From: a virus
Strand: one strand, 5' to 3'
Virus record (IMG/VR): IMGVR_UViG_3300047564_004382
Span: 1-21,790 of that record
Length of the DNA: 21,790 nucleotides
The notes below the pieces were generated by a model that saw only the letters and a list, made by a program, of their open reading frames with translations, was not told where the DNA came from and made no database searches. Every line of letters begins with the position of its first letter. The stretch's first letter is position 1. The translations under genes and the position numbers were made by a program. Shown here one piece after another: positions 5,157 through 19,246 of the stretch.

Positions 5157-5163
5157 ATAAATA
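5156..5163 (+). promoter_or_regulatory. T4-type late promoter
   Basis: Exact TATAAATA match to the T4 late promoter -10 element, 23 nt before the start codon of the 213-aa late protein, and directly fused to the preceding terminator T-run. Confidence 0.75.
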
Positions 5164-5185: not shown

Positions 5186-5827
5186 ATGGATCCTAAAGAA
5201 CTGCGCGGTTTAATGGAAGCATATTCTGAAGTTTATGCTCCTCAAGAAGTAGATGAAGCAATCTATAGCGAAAAGGGTAAAGCAAAAGCGGCAGAAATGA
5301 TTGCTAAGCGTTCCACTCCTTCTGGTAGAGCAAAAGCAGGTAAAGGTGCTAATGTTTCTCAAATCAGACAAATTCGTGGTTCTGGTAGAGGCGACTTTGA
5401 TAGAGAAGGTCTGGGTGGAACTCCAATGACTCCAACCATGGCTAAAAATCCAATTAAGAAACAGAGCTATACTGGAACTGGAAACAAAGCAGCAAGAAGA
5501 GCAGGATTAACACCAACCAGAGAAAAACCAAATGCTTGGAAAGAAGACCTTGATATCTTTGATGTAGTCCTTGAGTTCCTCCAAGCAGAAGGATTTGCAG
5601 AAACTCTGGAAGAAGCAGAGTGGATGATGGCAAATGTGATTGATGAGGAAGCGATTTCTATTGTTCTCGGTGAAGCACAAGAGGCTCGCAACAACCCTGA
5701 GAAGTATGAAGCAGACCAAAAGAAAAAGTCTGCTCCTGTTCGTGGAGAAAAAACTCCTATGCCACCAAGAGGTGATAAGCGTAGAGAGGACTTTGAGAAG
5801 TGGTATGCTAAGCAAATGGGTCGCTGA
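5186..5827 (+). CDS. putative prohead/virion-associated protein (213 aa)
   Basis: Highly charged, basic late protein with no enzyme motif. Visible features: an N-terminal helix ending LMEAY (L9-A12); a basic glycine-rich middle (residues 30-115); a helical acidic segment FDVVLEFLQAEGFAETLEEAEWM split here as residues 125-147; and a lysine/arginine-rich tail. LMEA (9-12), LEEA (141-144) and LGEA (161-164) fit the T4 prohead protease consensus (L/I)-x-E followed by a small residue, which suggests processing inside the capsid. A TATAAATA late promoter lies upstream. I know similar EGYA/EA-type sequences as hypothetical late proteins of cyanophages. Function beyond likely capsid association is unknown. 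Confidence 0.7.
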   Translation: MDPKELRGLMEAYSEVYAPQEVDEAIYSEKGKAKAAEMIAKRSTPSGRAKAGKGANVSQIRQIRGSGRGDFDREGLGGTPMTPTMAKNPIKKQSYTGTGNKAARRAGLTPTREKPNAWKEDLDIFDVVLEFLQAEGFAETLEEAEWMMANVIDEEAISIVLGEAQEARNNPEKYEADQKKKSAPVRGEKTPMPPRGDKRREDFEKWYAKQMGR

Positions 5828-6000: not shown

Positions 6001-7416
6001 ATGGCAAAAATAACTGTAGATAATAAAGATGTAGAAGTCCTAAGCGAAGCTATGTTTTGCTATTACTTCGCTTTAAAGTTAAAGGGAAAACTCAATCAAT
6101 ATAGACAACAAGATTGGAACAGTATTCTAAAAAAAAGTGATTTAGATTCTTGGACTAGGCAAAATGGAATATACTCTATAGTTGCTAGAGTTAATAGTGA
6201 TTCTGCTTTTTTATCTAGACTCAATAAAGTTTCGACTTTTTTAATTGAAAAAGGTTGGCACGAAAGATTAGTCGCACAACAAGAAAAGTTTTTTTCAAAA
6301 TACACTTTCAGTAGTAATTTTCTTGCTATGAGAGCGGATGAAATACCTTCAATATATGATCCATATAAGGTTTATGAAGTATCTTCTCAAAAAGCAAAGA
6401 CAGCATATGGATTTAAAGGAACTGTTGATAAAGATAAATGGAATCCTTCTGATGTGTGGATATTTTCTCCAAAATCTATTCAGATTTTAAAAAAATATGT
6501 TTCTAAATTGGGAGATTCTATTTTAAAAAATGATGAATACAAAGTTGGATTTTTAAATGCTCTCAATAATAAAATTTATGATCTTTTTAAGAAAAACTTA
6601 TTATACCCAGTTTCTTTGAAAGCCCCTAGTGGTGCTGTTAAAATAGTAGAAGAAAATACAAGATTTAGTTCTATTAAAAAGGTAGTAAGATACACACAAA
6701 TGAAATATGAAAATAACAATCAAGATGCAAAGATAGGATTTGCTGTTGATTTGTATGATGAAACAACTAAAAAAATAATTAAAAAGGATGAAATAATAGG
6801 TAATATAAAAACAAAAACTGTAAAGTCTGGTGGGGCAAGATTAGAAGTTGAAGTTAAGGGTGGGGGTGCTAGGTATGGATCTATGGGAACAGAAAATTAT
6901 CAGTGGATAATAAAGGAAACTGATTCTTCGGGAATAAATTCTTTAAATCAACTAAGATCTAAACATCCAGAATTAAAAAAATATTGGGGATCTGGATCAG
7001 AATGGTTATCAAGAAAAAATTTGTTAAATGAGTTTAAAAAAGACCCAAAAAAATTTGCTGCAGAAATAGAACCCTATACTCAAACATTATACAAACATTT
7101 AAATAATTCTCCTTGGGATGCAACAACAGCAGAGCGTTCAGCTAGAACACCAGAAGAAGCTTGGTTAAATAAAACACACGCTGGGGAAATTGCAGTTGCT
7201 GTTAATGATATAATGAATAAAATAAAAAGAGATATAACGGTTGAAAATTTATTTGATCTGGCTGCATCGCAGAGATTATCTGCAGGAGTTAGAGCGGAAC
7301 AACTTGATAGAAGAAGAAACACTGTGTCTAAAGAACTTCAAACAGATTTAAATGCTATTCCACCATCGAGTGCTTCTATTATATGGAATGCTTGTTTTTA
7401 TATTGTAGTTAAGTAA
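6001..7416 (+). CDS. AT-rich orphan protein (471 aa), possible nuclease fold
   Basis: I do not recognise this protein with confidence. The ATG at 6001 (MAKITVDNKDVEVLSEA) is chosen because extending the frame upstream would translate through the tRNA-Ala. It is lysine- and asparagine-rich with no signal peptide or membrane segment. Residues 147-154 (WNPSDVWI) followed about 50 residues later by LLYPVSLK (200-207) resemble the spaced D...(S/D/E)xK pattern of PD-(D/E)XK-like phage and defence proteins; this is a weak motif argument. A glycine-rich segment (RLEVEVKGGGARYG) and an alanine/arginine helical C-terminus (ASQRLSAGVRAEQLDRRR) follow. Base composition is strikingly AT-rich (one 60-base line has 12 G/C) versus neighbours, suggesting transfer. 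Late motif CTAAATA precedes it. Confidence 0.8.
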   Translation: MAKITVDNKDVEVLSEAMFCYYFALKLKGKLNQYRQQDWNSILKKSDLDSWTRQNGIYSIVARVNSDSAFLSRLNKVSTFLIEKGWHERLVAQQEKFFSKYTFSSNFLAMRADEIPSIYDPYKVYEVSSQKAKTAYGFKGTVDKDKWNPSDVWIFSPKSIQILKKYVSKLGDSILKNDEYKVGFLNALNNKIYDLFKKNLLYPVSLKAPSGAVKIVEENTRFSSIKKVVRYTQMKYENNNQDAKIGFAVDLYDETTKKIIKKDEIIGNIKTKTVKSGGARLEVEVKGGGARYGSMGTENYQWIIKETDSSGINSLNQLRSKHPELKKYWGSGSEWLSRKNLLNEFKKDPKKFAAEIEPYTQTLYKHLNNSPWDATTAERSARTPEEAWLNKTHAGEIAVAVNDIMNKIKRDITVENLFDLAASQRLSAGVRAEQLDRRRNTVSKELQTDLNAIPPSSASIIWNACFYIVVK

Positions 7417-7420
7417 AATC

Positions 7421-7428
7421 AATAAATA
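7421..7428 (+). promoter_or_regulatory. late-type promoter motif AATAAATA
   Basis: AATAAATA four bases after the orphan gene and about 20 nt ahead of the ATG at 7449. Position and spacing match the other late sites in this window; no Shine-Dalgarno is evident downstream. Confidence 0.5.
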
Positions 7429-7448: not shown

Positions 7449-8912
7449 ATGAAGAGTTTTTCCAAATTTCTAACTGAGGCAACACAATCGCAAGCATCGA
7501 TGCAAGCGAAAAAGTTAAACCTCAAGAGTGATGGCCACGGCGGTTGGTTAGATAGCCGTGGAGAGTTTGTTGCGAAAACAGAAAATGGAAAACTTGTGTT
7601 TTATGATAAAGGTAGAGTAGAAGGCGGAAAAGACCAACCAAAAGGTGCAGTAGGAAAATCACCAGCAGCACAAAAACCAGAAGCAAAACCAACTGCAGCA
7701 CCTGCACCAAAAGCACCTGCAAAAGCAGAAACTCCAACTGATGATGTTGATACTGGTAGTGATACTTTAACTGTTGCATTTGGTCGTTTCAATCCACCAA
7801 CAGTTGGCCACGAAAAACTTTTAAAGGCAGCAAGAAAAGCAGCAACTGGTGGAGACCTTAAGATTTATCCTTCAAGAACTCAGGATGCCAAGAAAAATCC
7901 TCTTGACCCTGATATGAAGATTTCGTTTATGAAAAAGATGTTCCCTGATTTTGAAGAGAACATTATTAATGATGATGAGATGAAGTCAATATTTAATGTA
8001 TTGATTGCAGCATCAGAAGCAGGATATGCAAATGTCAATATCGTTGTAGGTTCTGATAGACAAGCAGAGTTTGAAAATCTAGCTCAGAAATATAATGGAG
8101 ACCTTTATGAGTTTGATTTAATCCGTGTAATCTCTGCTGGTGTAAGAGATGCTGATGCTGAGGGTGTAGAAGGAATGTCAGCATCTAAAATGCGTAAAGC
8201 AGTTATTGAAGATGACTTTGATTCATTCCGAAAAGGAACACCAAAGACATTAGATGATGGTGATACACAAGCATTATTCGATGCAGTCCGTCAAGGAATG
8301 GGTGCAAAGAAAAAGAAGAAAGTTGCAGAGTTATGGCAGATTGCTCCAAAGTATGATGCAGAAACTCTCCGTGAAAACTACATCAAAGGTAACATTTTTA
8401 GAATTGGTGATATTGTAGAGAATTTAAATACTGGTCTTGTTGGCGAGATTATCAGAAGAGGAACTAACTATCTTATCTGTGTAACAGAAGATGAGTATAT
8501 GTTTAAGTCTTGGATTCGTGATGTAATGGAAGCAGAGGTAGAAGTTCCAACAACTAACTTAAAAAAACTTGTGAAGAGAGCTATTAATAGAAGAGATAAT
8601 AATATTGATGGATTTGTAGATAAAGAAGACCCAAAGGTTGGTCCTTATGGTGCTTTTATTCCTCAAGCAAGAAATCTTCCTAAGAACTTTAAGGAAGCAT
8701 ACCAAGAAGTAAGAGTTGAGAAAAAGATGAGAGCTCCTGGAAAACCAAATACGCTGGCAGGAACAGGTGGATATTTTAAGTATGTGTCTGATATGACGCC
8801 TGGATTTGAAAAGGGAGATAAGACAAACCTACAATATGGAGCAAAACCTTATAGTGGATATAAGCAAACAAATATTAGGGATTTCATAAATAAGTATAAA
8901 GTAAAGAAATAG
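7449..8912 (+). CDS. virion-associated nucleotidyltransferase-domain protein with capsid-targeting-like N-terminus
   Basis: 487-aa multi-domain late protein. Residues 1-11 read MKSFSKFLTEA, closely resembling the T4 internal-protein capsid-targeting peptide (MK-aromatic...F-I/L-x-E then A) cut by the gp21 protease after Glu10. A proline/alanine/lysine linker (62-97) precedes a cytidylyltransferase-like nucleotidyltransferase domain: FGRFNPPTVGH (111-121, TxGH motif) and SASKMRKAV (244-252, the second nucleotide-binding motif). Then an SH3/KOW-like segment (FRIGDIVENLNTGLVGEI, 317-334), VMEA (359-362) and an EF-hand-like loop D383-D394 (DNNIDGFVDKED). The likely picture is an enzyme packaged in the head or a structural protein built on that fold. 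Substrate (NMN, CTP-alcohol or other) cannot be told. CATAAATA for the next gene lies in its 3' end. Confidence 0.85.
   Translation: MKSFSKFLTEATQSQASMQAKKLNLKSDGHGGWLDSRGEFVAKTENGKLVFYDKGRVEGGKDQPKGAVGKSPAAQKPEAKPTAAPAPKAPAKAETPTDDVDTGSDTLTVAFGRFNPPTVGHEKLLKAARKAATGGDLKIYPSRTQDAKKNPLDPDMKISFMKKMFPDFEENIINDDEMKSIFNVLIAASEAGYANVNIVVGSDRQAEFENLAQKYNGDLYEFDLIRVISAGVRDADAEGVEGMSASKMRKAVIEDDFDSFRKGTPKTLDDGDTQALFDAVRQGMGAKKKKKVAELWQIAPKYDAETLRENYIKGNIFRIGDIVENLNTGLVGEIIRRGTNYLICVTEDEYMFKSWIRDVMEAEVEVPTTNLKKLVKRAINRRDNNIDGFVDKEDPKVGPYGAFIPQARNLPKNFKEAYQEVRVEKKMRAPGKPNTLAGTGGYFKYVSDMTPGFEKGDKTNLQYGAKPYSGYKQTNIRDFINKYKVKK
8885..8892 (+). promoter_or_regulatory. late-type promoter motif CATAAATA
   Basis: CATAAATA inside the last codons of the nucleotidyltransferase gene, about 29 nt before the ATG at 8922. 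Confidence 0.45.
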
Positions 8913-8921
8913 TAAATTACA

Positions 8922-10820
8922 ATGTCTATCAATCCTCTAAATGATATTTCTGCAGTTTATCTTAAACAGGTTGCGGAAAAAAAGGACAATTCATATCTTG
9001 AGACTGATATGAAAAAACGTCATGAGAATAATGAAAAGGCGCGTGAAGAAATGCGTAAGACTAAGGCAAATAAGGATATGGTAAAGGCTGCTAGAAAGTC
9101 TATGGGAATTGAAGAGGAAAGAAATGATGAGCCTGGTGAAGGCACAAGACAAAAGTATGGTGATATGCGTGGTTTAGATCGTAGTGGTCCTCCAACATCA
9201 TTTGGTGGAAAGTGGCAAAGTAAAGACAGAAAGGCAGCAGGTGCAGCAGCTCTTGCTAAACTTAATAAGGAAGAAATTGAAATTGGTGAAGCAGAGGAAA
9301 AGGATCCTTTTGGAAGACCAGGTGGTAAGTATGGTGGAGTTCCCAAAAAGGGTGGTGGATATGATAGAGGTTATCAGGCGATGCAGAAAAAACTTAAAGA
9401 GTTGGATAAATTAAAAAAAGAAGAAACTGAAATAGAAGAAGCAGTAAAGGGTGCTGACCCAGAGATGAGAAAAGCAGCATCTGATGAAAGAAGAGAAGGT
9501 GATAAAAGACTTTCTCCTTCTAAAGGAAAAGGTTATGCAGACCAGCAAAAGCAACAAATTTCTTATATGGATAAAGTAACCAAGAAGAATAAGAATGTGG
9601 TTGGTCTTGTTACCAAGGAAGCATTAGACCCAGTAGGTAAAGAAGATGCTGATATTGATAATGATGGCGATACTGATAAGTCCGATAAGTATCTCCATAA
9701 TCGTCGTAAGGCAGTTGGTAAGGCAATTGCTAAGAAGAAAGGGATGAAGGAAGGTTTCTCAAACTGGAGACAAGACCTTTCTGAGGTTATGGATGATGCT
9801 GAAGCAACTAAAGAAATTAAAGAAAAGAAGGTTAATAATAAGGTAAAGACTTCTGCTATGGGCGGAGGTATTAAATTAGGTGAAGCAGTAGAGGAGATTG
9901 GTGGAACTCTGCTTGAAATGGTTGAAATTGATGAAGTAGATTACATTATTGAAAGTGCATATAATGAGCTTATTGAAGAGGGTTATGATGAGAATGATAT
10001 TGAAGAAGCACTTGAGTATGCGCTAACTGAAGCAAAAGTAACTTTCGGACACGATACTTCTTCAACCGAAAAGAAAAAAGAAGGTCTTTTAAGTGCTGCT
10101 AGAAAGAAACTTTCTGGTGCAAAAGCATCTGCAAAGGCAGCAGTTGCAAGAGGAGCAAGAAAGGTTGCTAAAGGTGCATTAGGTGTTGCACGTAAAATGG
10201 AAGGTGGAGATAAGGCACCAAAAGCAACAGAAAGAAAACCATCAACATATCGTGGCGCCGGCGCAGGAACCAAAGAAAAAGTAAGTAGTGGTTCTTATAC
10301 TGCTCCAACCAAGAAGAAGGCAGAAAAACCTGCTGATCCTTGGGAAGGAACTGCAAGCACTCCACCCAAAGCAAAGGCAAAGAAGGCTGCTGCTCCTAAA
10401 GCAAAAGCACCTGCTGCTCCAAAGAGAAAGAGAAAAGCAAGTAAATTAGATTCTTTACTTACTTCAATAAGAAGTGAAGAAGTGCAGATTGATGAGAAGG
10501 CACTTAGCAAGCAGCAGCAAAAGTTTATGGGAATGGTTTATGCTGTAAAGAAAGGTGAAATGGAAGCACCTTCACCTGAAGTTGCAAAGGCAGCCGCAGG
10601 AATGACTAAGCAGCAGGCCAAGGATTTTGCTAAGACTAAGCACAAGGGTCTTCCTCAAGTTAAAGAAGCAATGGATGATTCTGTTGAAACATCATCAACA
10701 GCGTCTGGAACATCACCAGTTGATGATAAGAAAATGGAACAGCAGAGAAAGAAAATCCAAATGCAAAAAGTTAGAGACCTAACAGTGCGTCTCGCAGCAG
10801 CAAGAAAGGGTGTTTATTAA
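8922..10820 (+). CDS. scaffold/internal-protein-like virion protein with DUF3008-like C-terminus (632 aa)
   Basis: Very charged, lysine/alanine/glutamate-rich protein. In order: helical basic N-terminus; GRPGGKYGGVPKKGGGY glycine patch (131-147); EF-hand-like loop DIDNDGDTDKSD (244-255); a FSNWRQDLSEV box (279-289); the AYNELIEEGYDENDIEEALEY helix (346-366); histone H1-like Ala/Lys/Pro stretches (388-425, 482-508); and QQQKFMGMVYAVKKGE to KDFAKTKHKGLP (531-578), which I recognise as DUF3008-like. Sites I-G-E-A (121), I-E-E-A (171, 360), L-G-E-A (319) and L-T-E-A (368) fit the T4 prohead protease consensus, so multi-site cleavage during head maturation is likely. Best guess is a prohead core or DNA-associated internal protein. 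Upstream late motif; ends before a 10-bp palindrome. Confidence 0.8.
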   Translation: MSINPLNDISAVYLKQVAEKKDNSYLETDMKKRHENNEKAREEMRKTKANKDMVKAARKSMGIEEERNDEPGEGTRQKYGDMRGLDRSGPPTSFGGKWQSKDRKAAGAAALAKLNKEEIEIGEAEEKDPFGRPGGKYGGVPKKGGGYDRGYQAMQKKLKELDKLKKEETEIEEAVKGADPEMRKAASDERREGDKRLSPSKGKGYADQQKQQISYMDKVTKKNKNVVGLVTKEALDPVGKEDADIDNDGDTDKSDKYLHNRRKAVGKAIAKKKGMKEGFSNWRQDLSEVMDDAEATKEIKEKKVNNKVKTSAMGGGIKLGEAVEEIGGTLLEMVEIDEVDYIIESAYNELIEEGYDENDIEEALEYALTEAKVTFGHDTSSTEKKKEGLLSAARKKLSGAKASAKAAVARGARKVAKGALGVARKMEGGDKAPKATERKPSTYRGAGAGTKEKVSSGSYTAPTKKKAEKPADPWEGTASTPPKAKAKKAAAPKAKAPAAPKRKRKASKLDSLLTSIRSEEVQIDEKALSKQQQKFMGMVYAVKKGEMEAPSPEVAKAAAGMTKQQAKDFAKTKHKGLPQVKEAMDDSVETSSTASGTSPVDDKKMEQQRKKIQMQKVRDLTVRLAAARKGVY

Positions 10821-11230: not shown

Positions 11231-11237
11231 ATAAATA
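11230..11237 (+). promoter_or_regulatory. T4-type late promoter
   Basis: Exact TATAAATA sharing its first base with the terminator T-run, 31 nt ahead of the structural gene at 11269. Confidence 0.75.
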
Positions 11238-11268: not shown

Positions 11269-12036
11269 ATGGCACTCTGGGGAGACAAAGATAACATTTA
11301 TTCTGGTGGCACCGTATCTTTAGATTATCAAACTGGTGTTGTAACTGGAAGCGGCACCACTTTTGGTAACGTTGGAGCTGCTGGAACGGGAGACGTTATC
11401 CGTTTCGGTGAAGTGGTTGGCGGCACTTATTACGGCGATGCTGTAATTGTTGGAATTGCTAGCACAACACAACTCACGATTGGTTCTACGGCTGGACTTA
11501 GTGGCGCTACTATTTCTGGTGCTGAATTTACAGTAAATCAGCAACCAAAGTATGGTGTTCTTGACGTTCACTATAGTCAAAAGTATGAATCAACTGCTGA
11601 AACAATTAATGCAGTTGTAACCACTGCATCAGCACCTGGAGCTGGTGTAGGAACCGATGTTGTTGCTATCGCTAGCACCACTGGCATTCTTGTTTCCGAT
11701 ACTTTGACTGCTGCAGGTGGAGTAAGTGCTGAAGTTACTTCAATTGGCGCTACAACAGTTTCTCTTGGTTCTACCATCTCTGCAGGAATTGCAACTGATG
11801 CAACAGTTACCTTCACTCGTGTAACTGGTGGTTATAATTCTTATATCGCTGGTGTTTCTACAACTGGTGTTGGACTCGCTCAATCAACTGCATATGAAGT
11901 TGGAACTGGTTGGGTTGGAGTTACTACTTACAAGGACGCTGAAGGAAACCTCAGAGTTAAGAAAGAAATTCTAGTTGCAATGTCTGGCATTCAGACAGGT
12001 AATGTTCCTGTTTATGATGCAGACCCAACCATCTGA
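11269..12036 (+). CDS. putative virion structural protein, beta-rich (255 aa)
   Basis: Begins MALWGDKDNIYSGG and is dominated by Gly, Ala, Thr, Val and Ser with almost no charged residues until the end, typical of phage decoration, neck or fibre-like beta proteins. V-x-IASTT recurs (VGIASTT and VAIASTT) followed by short turn-rich strands, suggesting two to three repeated modules. The C-terminus (LRVKKEILVAMSGI) looks like that of a cyanophage structural family beginning MALWG, as I recall it. A strong terminator-late-promoter junction precedes it, and ACGGAAAAG gives a modest ribosome site. The exact virion position is unknown. Confidence 0.75.
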   Translation: MALWGDKDNIYSGGTVSLDYQTGVVTGSGTTFGNVGAAGTGDVIRFGEVVGGTYYGDAVIVGIASTTQLTIGSTAGLSGATISGAEFTVNQQPKYGVLDVHYSQKYESTAETINAVVTTASAPGAGVGTDVVAIASTTGILVSDTLTAAGGVSAEVTSIGATTVSLGSTISAGIATDATVTFTRVTGGYNSYIAGVSTTGVGLAQSTAYEVGTGWVGVTTYKDAEGNLRVKKEILVAMSGIQTGNVPVYDADPTI

Positions 12037-12042
12037 TAATAT

Positions 12043-12429
12043 ATGATTTTTAATGAACTGAATGAGGACAATTTCCTCTTATTCGCTATTAAGAATTATG
12101 AGAATCCTCAGGCGGTAACAAAAGAAGATTTTGATAAGGATCTTAATCATTTCAAATATATTAAAAGACTTTTGAAACGATACAAGAATACGGGTCAGTT
12201 AAAAACTCATCTTCTTCTTAATCATTTTATTATTCTTTATAATATTTTTGGTGAGGCTGCAACTCCAATGCTTTTTTTTAAAATAGAAAAAGAGTTGTGG
12301 TCTCCTATGAAAACATTTATGATTTTTTTGGATAAAATACCTGAATACCCTAAGTGTCATATTCATAGTATTCCAACAGATTCAATTTGTTTACAAGAAC
12401 TTCAAAGCATCTTCAAACCAAATGAATAA
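12043..12429 (+). CDS. conserved T4-like hypothetical protein (128 aa)
   Basis: Helical, aromatic-rich protein (MIFNELNEDNFLLFAIKNYE...) with a basic KYIKRLLKRYK segment, a hydrophobic LLLNHFIILYNIFGEAA helix (57-73) and a histidine/cysteine pair near the C-terminus (KCHIHS). I recognise the type from cyanophage genomes, always hypothetical. Six bases separate it from the structural gene, and its end overlaps the next gene (ATGA), so it may be carried on the late transcript. No function assigned. Confidence 0.8.
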   Translation: MIFNELNEDNFLLFAIKNYENPQAVTKEDFDKDLNHFKYIKRLLKRYKNTGQLKTHLLLNHFIILYNIFGEAATPMLFFKIEKELWSPMKTFMIFLDKIPEYPKCHIHSIPTDSICLQELQSIFKPNE

Positions 12430-17492: not shown

Positions 17493-17500
17493 AATAAATA
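17493..17500 (+). promoter_or_regulatory. late-type promoter motif AATAAATA
   Basis: AATAAATA about 33 nt before the subtilase ATG; a nearby TATAAAATA (17482-17490) is a poorer match. The leader is nearly all A/T with no clear Shine-Dalgarno. Confidence 0.45.
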
Positions 17501-17533: not shown

Positions 17534-19246
17534 ATGCCTTATCCTGTTACTTTAGAAGATTTGCTAAGTCAAAAGACCTCATTATCTTCAAGTTCCGAAG
17601 ATTCAGTTTTAGATGTAAAGTCTCCATATGTTATTTTTGTCGGCAATGAAGGATCTGAAAAACTTGAGAGTAAGATACAATCAATGCTTAGTGATGTTGG
17701 TGTAGATTCGGCACCAACTAAAGTTTTTTCTGAACTTAATGGATTCACAGTAGATATTACAGAGTCTCAAGCAGAACAACTAAAGGGTGTCGGTGGTGTA
17801 AAAAGTATTGAAAAAGATTTACCTGTTTTCTTTGAGTCTCCTGTTGCCGAGGCACTAAAGTCAAGGTCAAGGTCTAAGTTAAAAACAAAAGTCACAACAT
17901 CTTCGTTGTCAAGTTACAATGATGGTTTTGCTGGCACTGGAGAATATCTCCCTTGGGGAGTTCGTGCTGTATGGCAGGGGCAAGATGTTTCTACAAAAGG
18001 AAACTTTGCGAGTGATAGTTATGTTTTTGTTATTGATACAGGTGTATCAAATACAACTGGGGATTTAAACTTAGCATCTAATAGTACTTGGCACCGCAGT
18101 TGGATTCCTGGAGCAACTCCATTTACTGATGATGACGGACACGGAACACACGTAGCGGGCACTGTTGCTGCTTTGGCAAATGGTATTGGAGTTGTTGGAG
18201 TTGCTCCAGGAGCTCAAGTAGTTTCACTGAAGGTATTTGATAGTATTGGTAGTGGGGCAAGTTATTCAACAATTATAGATGCTATCAATTACGCTGTATC
18301 AGTAATTAATACTAACGGTTTAGATAAGAATAAAGTTGTAATCAATATGAGTCTGGGTGGACCATTCAGTTCATCACTAGATAATGCGGTTAGAAATGCC
18401 GCAAATCAAGGAATTAAGTTTGCCATTGCTGCTGGAAATAGTGGTTCTGATGCTGATGGTTTCTCTCCTGCTTCTGCTGGGGACAATCCAAATGTCTTTA
18501 CTGTTTCTGCTGTAGATAAGAACTATAATATGACATCCTGGTCCAACTGGGATGGAAATGACAGCGTTGACGATGTTGATGTTGCTGCCCCAGGAGCAGG
18601 TGTTCTTTCACTCTATCGTGGTGGACTTTCATACCTAAGCGGAACCTCTATGGCCGCGCCACACGTTGCTGGATTATTGTTAGCAGGTGGGGTTACTCGT
18701 GGAAGTCTTGTTAATCCTTATTACACTGGCACGGCTGACCCATTCGCTGTTGCTTCAAACACAACATCCACACCAACTCCTACCCCTAGTCCAACTCCAG
18801 TTGTTGATAAAGATTTAGTACTTTGGGGTACAACTAGAAGTGATGTAATCACAGGTGCTGGGGGTAATGATCGTCTTAGTGGAGTTCTTGCTTCTGGCAC
18901 TAGTTCTTTTGCTATGGGTGGAGGACAAATTGATGAGATTACCGGTCTTGCTGGGTCTGATGTATTTGTTTTAGGTGACAGTCGTGGAGTATTCTATAAT
19001 GATAGAAACTCACGTACTACTGGTACTTCAGACTATGCCTATATTAAAGATTTCAAATCTGGTGAAGATAAACTACAACTTCGTAATTCAAATTATTTCC
19101 TTGCCTCTTCTAATGGAAACTTATTTTTGTATTGGGATTCTAACTATAATGGCACTTTCCAAACAAGCGGCCGTAGCCAAGACGAACTGATTGCTGTACT
19201 GGGTGGTGTGTCTACATTAACTAACAATGATGTAACTTTCGTGTAA
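17534..19246 (+). CDS. subtilisin-like serine protease with inhibitor_I9-like propeptide and RTX-like C-terminus (570 aa)
   Basis: S8-family protease. Residues 31-100 (PYVIFVGNEG ... SIEKDLPVFF) match the inhibitor_I9 prodomain pattern. The catalytic core has Asp168 (VIDTGV), His203 (DGHGTHVAGT), oxyanion Asn302 (AAGNSG) and Ser372 (SGTSMAAPH), so the full triad is present. A Thr/Pro linker (412-423) leads to an RTX-like tail with GAGGNDRLSG (441-450), TGLAGSDVFVLGD (470-482) and DYAYIKDFKSGEDKLQL (500-516), the type that ends many cyanobacterial secreted proteins. No N-terminal signal peptide is seen, consistent with type I export or cytoplasmic/virion use. Single gene with own late motif and terminator, flanked by direct repeats; likely captured from a bacterium. 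Could process virion proteins or host surface. Confidence 0.95.
   Translation: MPYPVTLEDLLSQKTSLSSSSEDSVLDVKSPYVIFVGNEGSEKLESKIQSMLSDVGVDSAPTKVFSELNGFTVDITESQAEQLKGVGGVKSIEKDLPVFFESPVAEALKSRSRSKLKTKVTTSSLSSYNDGFAGTGEYLPWGVRAVWQGQDVSTKGNFASDSYVFVIDTGVSNTTGDLNLASNSTWHRSWIPGATPFTDDDGHGTHVAGTVAALANGIGVVGVAPGAQVVSLKVFDSIGSGASYSTIIDAINYAVSVINTNGLDKNKVVINMSLGGPFSSSLDNAVRNAANQGIKFAIAAGNSGSDADGFSPASAGDNPNVFTVSAVDKNYNMTSWSNWDGNDSVDDVDVAAPGAGVLSLYRGGLSYLSGTSMAAPHVAGLLLAGGVTRGSLVNPYYTGTADPFAVASNTTSTPTPTPSPTPVVDKDLVLWGTTRSDVITGAGGNDRLSGVLASGTSSFAMGGGQIDEITGLAGSDVFVLGDSRGVFYNDRNSRTTGTSDYAYIKDFKSGEDKLQLRNSNYFLASSNGNLFLYWDSNYNGTFQTSGRSQDELIAVLGGVSTLTNNDVTFV

Follow-up and report, generated by a model that had tools for sequence, protein, structure and literature searches.

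The question raised by this locus was whether a nucleotidyltransferase of a T4-like cyanophage begins with a peptide that directs it into the phage head. The window, by which we mean the whole stretch of DNA analyzed, is an IMG/VR record of 21,790 bases from a marine T4-like cyanophage fragment, on which gp43, uvsX, gp41, mazG, gp61, nrdA and nrdB are arranged in the gene order of S-SM2. An open reading frame (ORF) at 7449-8912 (+) encodes a protein of 487 amino acids with the N-terminus MKSFSKFLTEA, the middle of which corresponds to PHROG_395 cytidyltransferase. Relatives of this protein were found in 534 phage records, cyanophages for the most part. Features of the gene and its neighborhood are listed below; a slash within a peptide marks a predicted proteolytic cut.

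7421..7428 (+): late promoter core AATAAATA (NATAAATA type), ATAAATA at 7422, 27 nt upstream of the 7449 start
7449..8912 (+): whole gene, adenylyl/cytidylyltransferase tagged with a capsid targeting sequence (CTS), 487 aa (phrog_395, E 1e-101)
7449..7478 (+): CTS, residues 1-10, MKSFSKFLTE (homologue conservation, comparison with T4 internal proteins, T4 CTS mutagenesis, PMC9026906)
7476..7481 (+): predicted prohead-protease site E10/A11, as L8-x-E10/A11 (sequence motif; MCPs of relatives FLAE/A, LLTE/A, ILTE/A)
7491..7610 (+): SDGHG module, residues 15-54, small helix/strand unit folded in the AF2 model (pLDDT about 76-79), also present in virion proteins of unrelated type (S-CREM2 ORF12, S-N03 and S-CRM01 proteins)
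7614..7757 (+): low-complexity K/P/A linker, residues 56-103, predicted disordered, missing from the S-CREM2 and S-CRM01 homologues
7758..8318 (+): predicted adenylyltransferase-fold domain, residues 104-290, with (T/H)xGH at 118-121 and SxSxxR at 244-249 (VIA-align Z 12-13.5 to PPAT, NadD and NadM; Foldseek; invariant columns)
8391..8531 (+): C-terminal small beta domain, residues 315-361; in S-PM2, a comparable segment stands alone as a short ORF
5186..5827 (+): cassette neighbor, orthologue of S-SCSM1 ORF89, virion-detected (32% identity, E 6e-19; late promoter at 5157)
6001..7416 (+): cassette neighbor, weak match to S-SCSM1 ORF90, virion-detected (22% identity, E 6e-6)
8922..10820 (+): cassette neighbor, a single gene orthologous to both ORF92 and ORF93 of S-SCSM1, each virion-detected (31% and 73% identity; late promoter at 8886)
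11269..12036 (+): cassette neighbor, orthologue of S-SCSM1 ORF95, virion-detected (53% identity; late promoter at 11231)
12043..12429 (+): cassette gene in collinear position; its S-SCSM1 orthologue, ORF96 (DUF7207), was not among the virion detections (alignment to S-SCSM1)

The decapeptide at the start of the gene

The ORF starts with the codons ATG AAG AGT TTT TCC AAA TTT CTA ACT GAG GCA (7449-7481, +), which encode MKSFSKFLTEA. The original prediction was that this stretch has the layout of a T4 capsid-targeting peptide with a gp21-type (L/I)-x-E cleavage point after residue 10, and the coordinates, layout and L/I-x-E site were all found to be correct. The peptide is confirmed as real and as located at the true gene start, where it conforms to M-K-x-[FY]-x-x-F-[LI]-x-E and matches the starts of T4 ipII and ipIII (MKTYQEFIAEA) and of ipI (MKTFKEF). 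Amber-suppressor mutagenesis of the T4 IPIII CTS assigned targeting chiefly to residues 4 and 7 and processing to residues 8 and 10 (review PMC9026906). These positions correspond to F4, F7, L/I8 and E10 in the window family, where they are invariant or conservatively exchanged, and the window peptide carries residues of the T4 type at both pairs.

A set of 67 distinct, full-length homologues from metagenomes served to assess conservation. M1, K2, F4, F7, E10 and A11 were kept in 67 of 67 and position 8 was Leu or Ile, with positions 3, 5, 6 and 9 variable. Every invariant codon but ATG displayed synonymous variation (AAG/AAA, TTT/TTC, GAG/GAA and GCA/GCT), as did the Leu codons of position 8 (CTA/TTA/CTG/TTG). 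Since these residues are invariant despite synonymous codon changes, the decapeptide is, on the sequence comparison, under selection as a peptide. Small length changes among the homologues sit immediately 3' of A11. In the S-CREM2 and S-CRM01 homologues, which are 42-45% identical, residues 12-105 are mostly gone and the tag is retained (MKNFSSFLTEA and MKLFNQFFKEA, respectively); in the S-SZBM1 orthologue it reads MRFRQFIIEA and is shorter by one residue. The S-SSM7 homologue starts with GTG (VKSFGQFLTEA), and in the Bellamy cytidyltransferase (L118, 6001-6049) MKSLFQFLNEA lies 16 codons upstream of the start given in GenBank; thus, annotation can hide the tag. The domain is fused to a ligase-like protein with no CTS in S-PM2, and the Cr30 and CBB homologues checked were likewise without CTS; the tag is therefore no inherent part of the enzyme.

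The peptide closes with a gp21-type motif, read as L8-T9-E10/A11. Comparable motifs were located in the MCPs of three relatives (FLAE/APT in S-SCSM1, LLTE/APT in S-CREM2 and ILTE/AAPT in S-SZBM1), within the N-terminal stretch that in T4 gp23 contains the cut. The prohead proteases of these relatives are encoded and virion-detected; neither gp21 nor MCP is encoded within the 21.8-kb window record. The LxE/A motif is as in the MCPs of relatives, in agreement with the cleavage point first proposed, and prohead cleavage after E10 is very probable.

Other CTS-like peptides were noted. T4 gp61.1 (L113, 967-1131), which adjoins primase gene 61, starts with MKTFKEFIKE, and the cyanophage virion cassette likewise lies in the neighborhood of gp61. 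The virion protein S-SCSM1 ORF93 (L085, 31626-31835) has the CTS-like C-terminal end RTFKEFLEYIE.

The gene would be expressed late. The NATAAATA sequence is the late promoter of cyanomyoviruses, with the core ATAAATA (PMC2984593), and a core of this type was found at 7421-7428. Among 65 distinct homologue upstreams, ATAAATA was present within 60 nt in 59 and at exactly -27 in 48, compared to a background of 2.6% of 60-mers across the same homologue loci. The window carries eight ATAAATA sites on the + strand (5157, 5827, 7422, 8886, 11231, 17494, 19407 and 20945) and none on the - strand. Seven of the eight are 27-40 nt upstream of ORF starts, those at 5186, 7449, 8922 and 11269 included, and the other precedes tRNA-Ala; no core was found directly upstream of the replication genes of the window. 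The site at 17494 belongs to a subtilase gene (17534-19246; Peptidase_S8, E 2.5e-35). Its product has an I9 propeptide and its C-terminus is GGxGxD/RTX-like; such a protease looks unusual in a cyanophage.

Enzyme fold and substrate

The AF2 model of the whole protein was modest (mean pLDDT 59), with the enzyme domain at about 70-86. Alignment of residues 104-290 to PPAT, NadD and NadM structures left the three families tied in Z, and TVGH (118-121) and SASKMR (244-249) were found at the motif positions. This structural alignment and the motifs support the nucleotidyltransferase fold proposed at the outset, which on the model would be that of the adenylyltransferase superfamily. In a diverse homologue set, the GRFNPP(T/H)xGH and SxSxxR residues were invariant or near-invariant. 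With regard to NMNAT, the protein has the predicted Rossmann-like nucleotidyltransferase fold and the (H/T)xGH and SxTxxR-type motifs; its scores lie below the curated cut-offs (15 versus 112 bits for TIGR00482 and 13 versus 341 bits for TIGR01526). Because PPAT, NadD and NadM tie structurally and the NCBIfam models score far below cut-off, NMNAT identity was not adopted for the protein. A search of PDB sequences with the family profile gave nothing significant.

The alternative that survives best is a packaged and injected adenylyltransferase with a substrate other than NMN, such as a phosphopantetheine-like compound, nicotinate or another phosphate acceptor. This alternative is compatible with an internal head protein and competes with the NAD step only. 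The structural tie, the distance of the best NCBIfam scores from their cut-offs and the replacement of HxGH by TxGH are in its favor, against a lean of the PHROG neighbors and of the published annotations to NMNAT by homology only. We give a non-NMN substrate a substantial chance, if short of even. Action on NAD or NMN, the metabolism originally suggested, is a plausible reading that we put forward tentatively.

A second alternative accepts packaging and assigns the protein a structural or core role (scaffold organization or DNA condensation), with a vestigial enzyme fold. The Lys/Pro/Ala-rich linker and long non-enzymatic extensions would fit such a role, as would the neighboring cassette proteins, which are lysine-rich and have virion proteins as orthologues. 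The invariant or near-invariant motif residues argue against it, and we consider it improbable.

Between the tag and the linker, residues 15-54 form the SDGHG module. A corresponding unit is found behind the tag in S-CREM2 ORF12 (annotated as Cas9), its S-N03 counterpart and S-CRM01 g128, and is more weakly common to cyanophage kinases (pairwise E values of 1e-5 to 1e-15, obtained with a minimal search space). The sharing of this unit behind the tag suggests that some members of the family have a cargo leader made of two parts. An Asp-rich EF-hand/dockerin-like segment was observed in the C-terminal insert of the window enzyme (8544-8723, NRRDNNIDGFVDKEDPKVGPYGAF) and in the ORF at 8922-10820 (DPVGKEDADIDNDGDTDKSDKYLHNRRKA), and likewise in S-SCSM1 ORF92 and syn9 gp185.

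The tag across phages and in published virions

To follow the tag beyond this family, MKx[FY]xxF[LIVMF]xE was scanned on both strands of 17 whole phage records (about 3.4 Mb), with the reversed pattern as control. By this approach, 19 matches were obtained compared to 0 for the control, and 17 of the 19 were at the starts of plausible ORFs, T4 ipII, ipIII and 61.1 among these. The matches in Bellamy (a 51-aa frame within a longer open frame) and CBB (an 11-aa frame) were set aside as chance, and a 56-aa S-SCSM1 frame inside a tail-fiber gene was not counted as tagged. Other tagged proteins of the whole records were GNAT-like (S-CRM01), KptA/ART-like (Cr30) and, by eye, methyltransferase-like (KVP40). 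CTS-tagged ADP-ribosyltransferase/KptA-like proteins, reminiscent of the packaged T4 Alt, were noted in Cr30 (L126, 1213-1530; weak Pfam/PHROG hits) and, by eye, in a metagenomic cluster (L153, 1211-1858).

A stricter T3 form, MKT[FY]xxF[LIVMF]xEA, was scanned against IMG/VR with a permuted motif of the same constraints as control, giving at least 120 stretches versus 4. Among the matches listed, 84 of 85 begin an ORF of at least 40 aa, and the tagged ORFs form about 50 clusters with little in common past the first 11 residues. PHROG labels among the matches listed included internal head protein and internal virion protein, the recovery of which serves as an unselected positive control for the pattern; cytidyltransferase was one of the most frequent (10 of 84), and Pfam labels included CTP_transf_like, GNAT, DPBB and P-loop kinases. 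Taken together, the 67/67 conservation, the scan of whole records and the IMG/VR scan reveal that the tag is not a chance likeness.

Published virion proteomes provide evidence from relatives. S-SCSM1 ORF91, a tagged orthologue of 72% identity, belongs to the proteome of CsCl-purified virions (PMC9602691), and the tagged orthologues S-CREM2 ORF154 (PMC10665884) and S-SZBM1_140 (PMC9146016) are in CsCl virion lists. The S-CBWM1 'NMNAT' was rejected as a further proteome case (219 aa, a non-T4 phage, no CTS and no pattern match in the genome). The window genes starting at 5186, 6001, 7449, 8922, 11269, 12043 and 12615 correspond in the same order to S-SCSM1 ORFs 89, 90, 91, 92/93, 95, 96 and 98, and the GenBank record of S-SCSM1 marks ORFs 89, 90, 91, 92, 93, 95 and 97 as virion proteins. 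A further tagged gene, S-SCSM1 ORF30, is absent from the S-SCSM1 virion detections. When the S-CREM2 genome was scanned with a relaxed motif at ORF starts, four annotated genes were recovered: ORF6 (SAM lyase, i.e., S-AdoMet lyase; PF23780, E 2e-19), ORF13 (a small ORF), ORF14 (kinase) and ORF154 (cytidylyltransferase). All four were virion-detected, compared to 52 of 219 genes overall (hypergeometric P 0.003) and to 28 of the 187 not annotated as structural (P 0.0004). In the virion-detected S-CREM2 ORF12, the peptide core occurs as RFASFMAEA, 17 residues from the start.

Two further sequence likenesses to head proteins were observed. At 5186-5240 of the window, MDPKELRGLMEAYSEVY resembles the N-terminus of the virion protein S-SCSM1 ORF89 (MDSKTFNSLSEAYAAVY), and its LxE/A suggests another prohead-protease propeptide. 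A near copy of the MCP arm just past the cleavage motif (GFTGAAAPEGPVAGYDPLM) was found in the short proteins S-SCSM1 ORF97, S-CREM2 ORF160 and syn9 gp190 (L085, 33121-33306; L084, 28342-29235; L097, 9430-9954), the first two of which are virion-detected; it is possibly a second head-targeting device.

Virion detection could be explained if an ordinary late or abundant metabolic enzyme co-purified with the particles and its N-terminal likeness were an accident of shared cyanophage ancestry. The proteome authors, those of S-SCSM1 among them, left open contamination by abundant proteins (e.g., PMC9602691), and RegA, unexpected in virions, is also marked as a virion protein in S-SCSM1. Against this stand the invariance of the tag despite synonymous codon change, its retention after loss of the adjacent region, the detection in S-CREM2 virions of unrelated enzymes bearing the same tag, and the result with the permuted motif; we judge co-purification quite unlikely. 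That the first ten residues instead form an unspecific amphipathic helix at the start of the protein, serving membrane or tail-tube association, in keeping with a low-confidence AF2 helix at 4-10, is very unlikely given the pattern identical to the T4 ip genes, the named internal head proteins recovered by that pattern and LxE/A at the same offset.

Packaging inside the head, as originally predicted, is thus very probably right, based on the tagged orthologues in CsCl virions, the match to the T4-mutagenized positions and a tag that outlasts loss of the linker. We hold with high confidence that the enzyme is packaged, and consider it very likely, if a little less firmly, that it is a CTS-tagged internal head protein of T4 type with an enzyme as cargo.

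Proposed route and comparison with known systems

The following route would account for these observations. After late expression from the NATAAATA promoter, MKSFSKFLTE would use F4 and F7 to dock the precursor to the scaffolding core of the prohead, and a gp21-type prohead protease would cut after E10 to leave a 477-aa enzyme from Ala11 within the head. The mature enzyme may then be ejected along with the DNA, injection into the host being plausible and rather probable. It could act there as an adenylyltransferase at the start of infection, with NAD or a related dinucleotide cofactor as simplest substrate.

Reconstitution of NAD+ by phages against NAD-depleting immunity is established elsewhere, as described for NARP1 (PMC12774641). 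By hypothesis, the packaged adenylyltransferase may be linked to such immunity. A broader joint reading is that proteins with the tag make up an open-ended repertoire of enzymes injected by phages of the T4 superfamily (adenylyltransferases, kinases, SAM lyase, GNAT, ART-like, nuclease-like, P-loop kinases and many unknowns). In marine cyanophages, the packaged adenylyltransferase would then restore NAD(H) or a related cofactor from the very start of infection, before host immunity based on NAD depletion can act; this we offer as speculative and, as a whole, rather unlikely.

NMNAT-like and other enzymes have been found repeatedly in published cyanophage virion proteomes, where packaging and contamination could not be told apart. 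A T4-type CTS on virion enzymes would supply a packaging mechanism and make both the cargo and its exact mature N-terminus predictable from sequence. Neither titles nor abstracts in the open-access literature searched described a CTS in cyanophages, the T4 head review being the sole match on capsid targeting with cyanophages, and the tag is not discussed in the accessible part of the S-SCSM1 proteome paper (PMC9602691). As far as that literature shows, the link between the T4 tag and enzymes recurrent in cyanophage virions is new, and so are the association of tag and virion detection, the SDGHG module and the wide range of proteins that carry the tag. With such a tag, the pre-loaded proteins of cyanophages, which rank among the most abundant viruses in the sea, could be listed from sequence, and early takeover of the host would become open to direct test.

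Comparison with known systems sets these conclusions in context. One is S-SCSM1 ORF91, an NMNAT-like virion protein, together with the cytidyltransferase PHROG_395; this orthologue is 72% identical over residues 1-367 and has the same tag. The C-terminus of the window protein is longer, and an insert at about residues 366-425 is additional to it. NadM, NadD and CoaD share the predicted fold, (T/H)xGH and SxSxxR with the window protein, whereas identity in structural alignments is about 9-17% and scores are below the curated family cut-offs. T4 Alt is a packaged, propeptide-bearing ADP-ribosyltransferase. Like Alt (PMC9026906), the window protein would be a large, head-packaged enzyme with a propeptide. 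NAD-related chemistry would be common to the two only if the NMNAT reading holds, and even then Alt uses NAD whereas the window protein would make it; no sequence relation between them is shown. The T4 proteins IPI, IPII and IPIII (MKTYQEFIAE/A) are alike in length and position of the peptide, in residues 1, 2, 4, 7, 8, 10 and 11, in an LxE or IxE site before Ala, and in the varied cargo behind one short tag. By contrast to these small coliphage proteins, the cyanophage cargo would be a 477-aa enzyme of adenylyltransferase fold preceded by the SDGHG module of about 40 aa.
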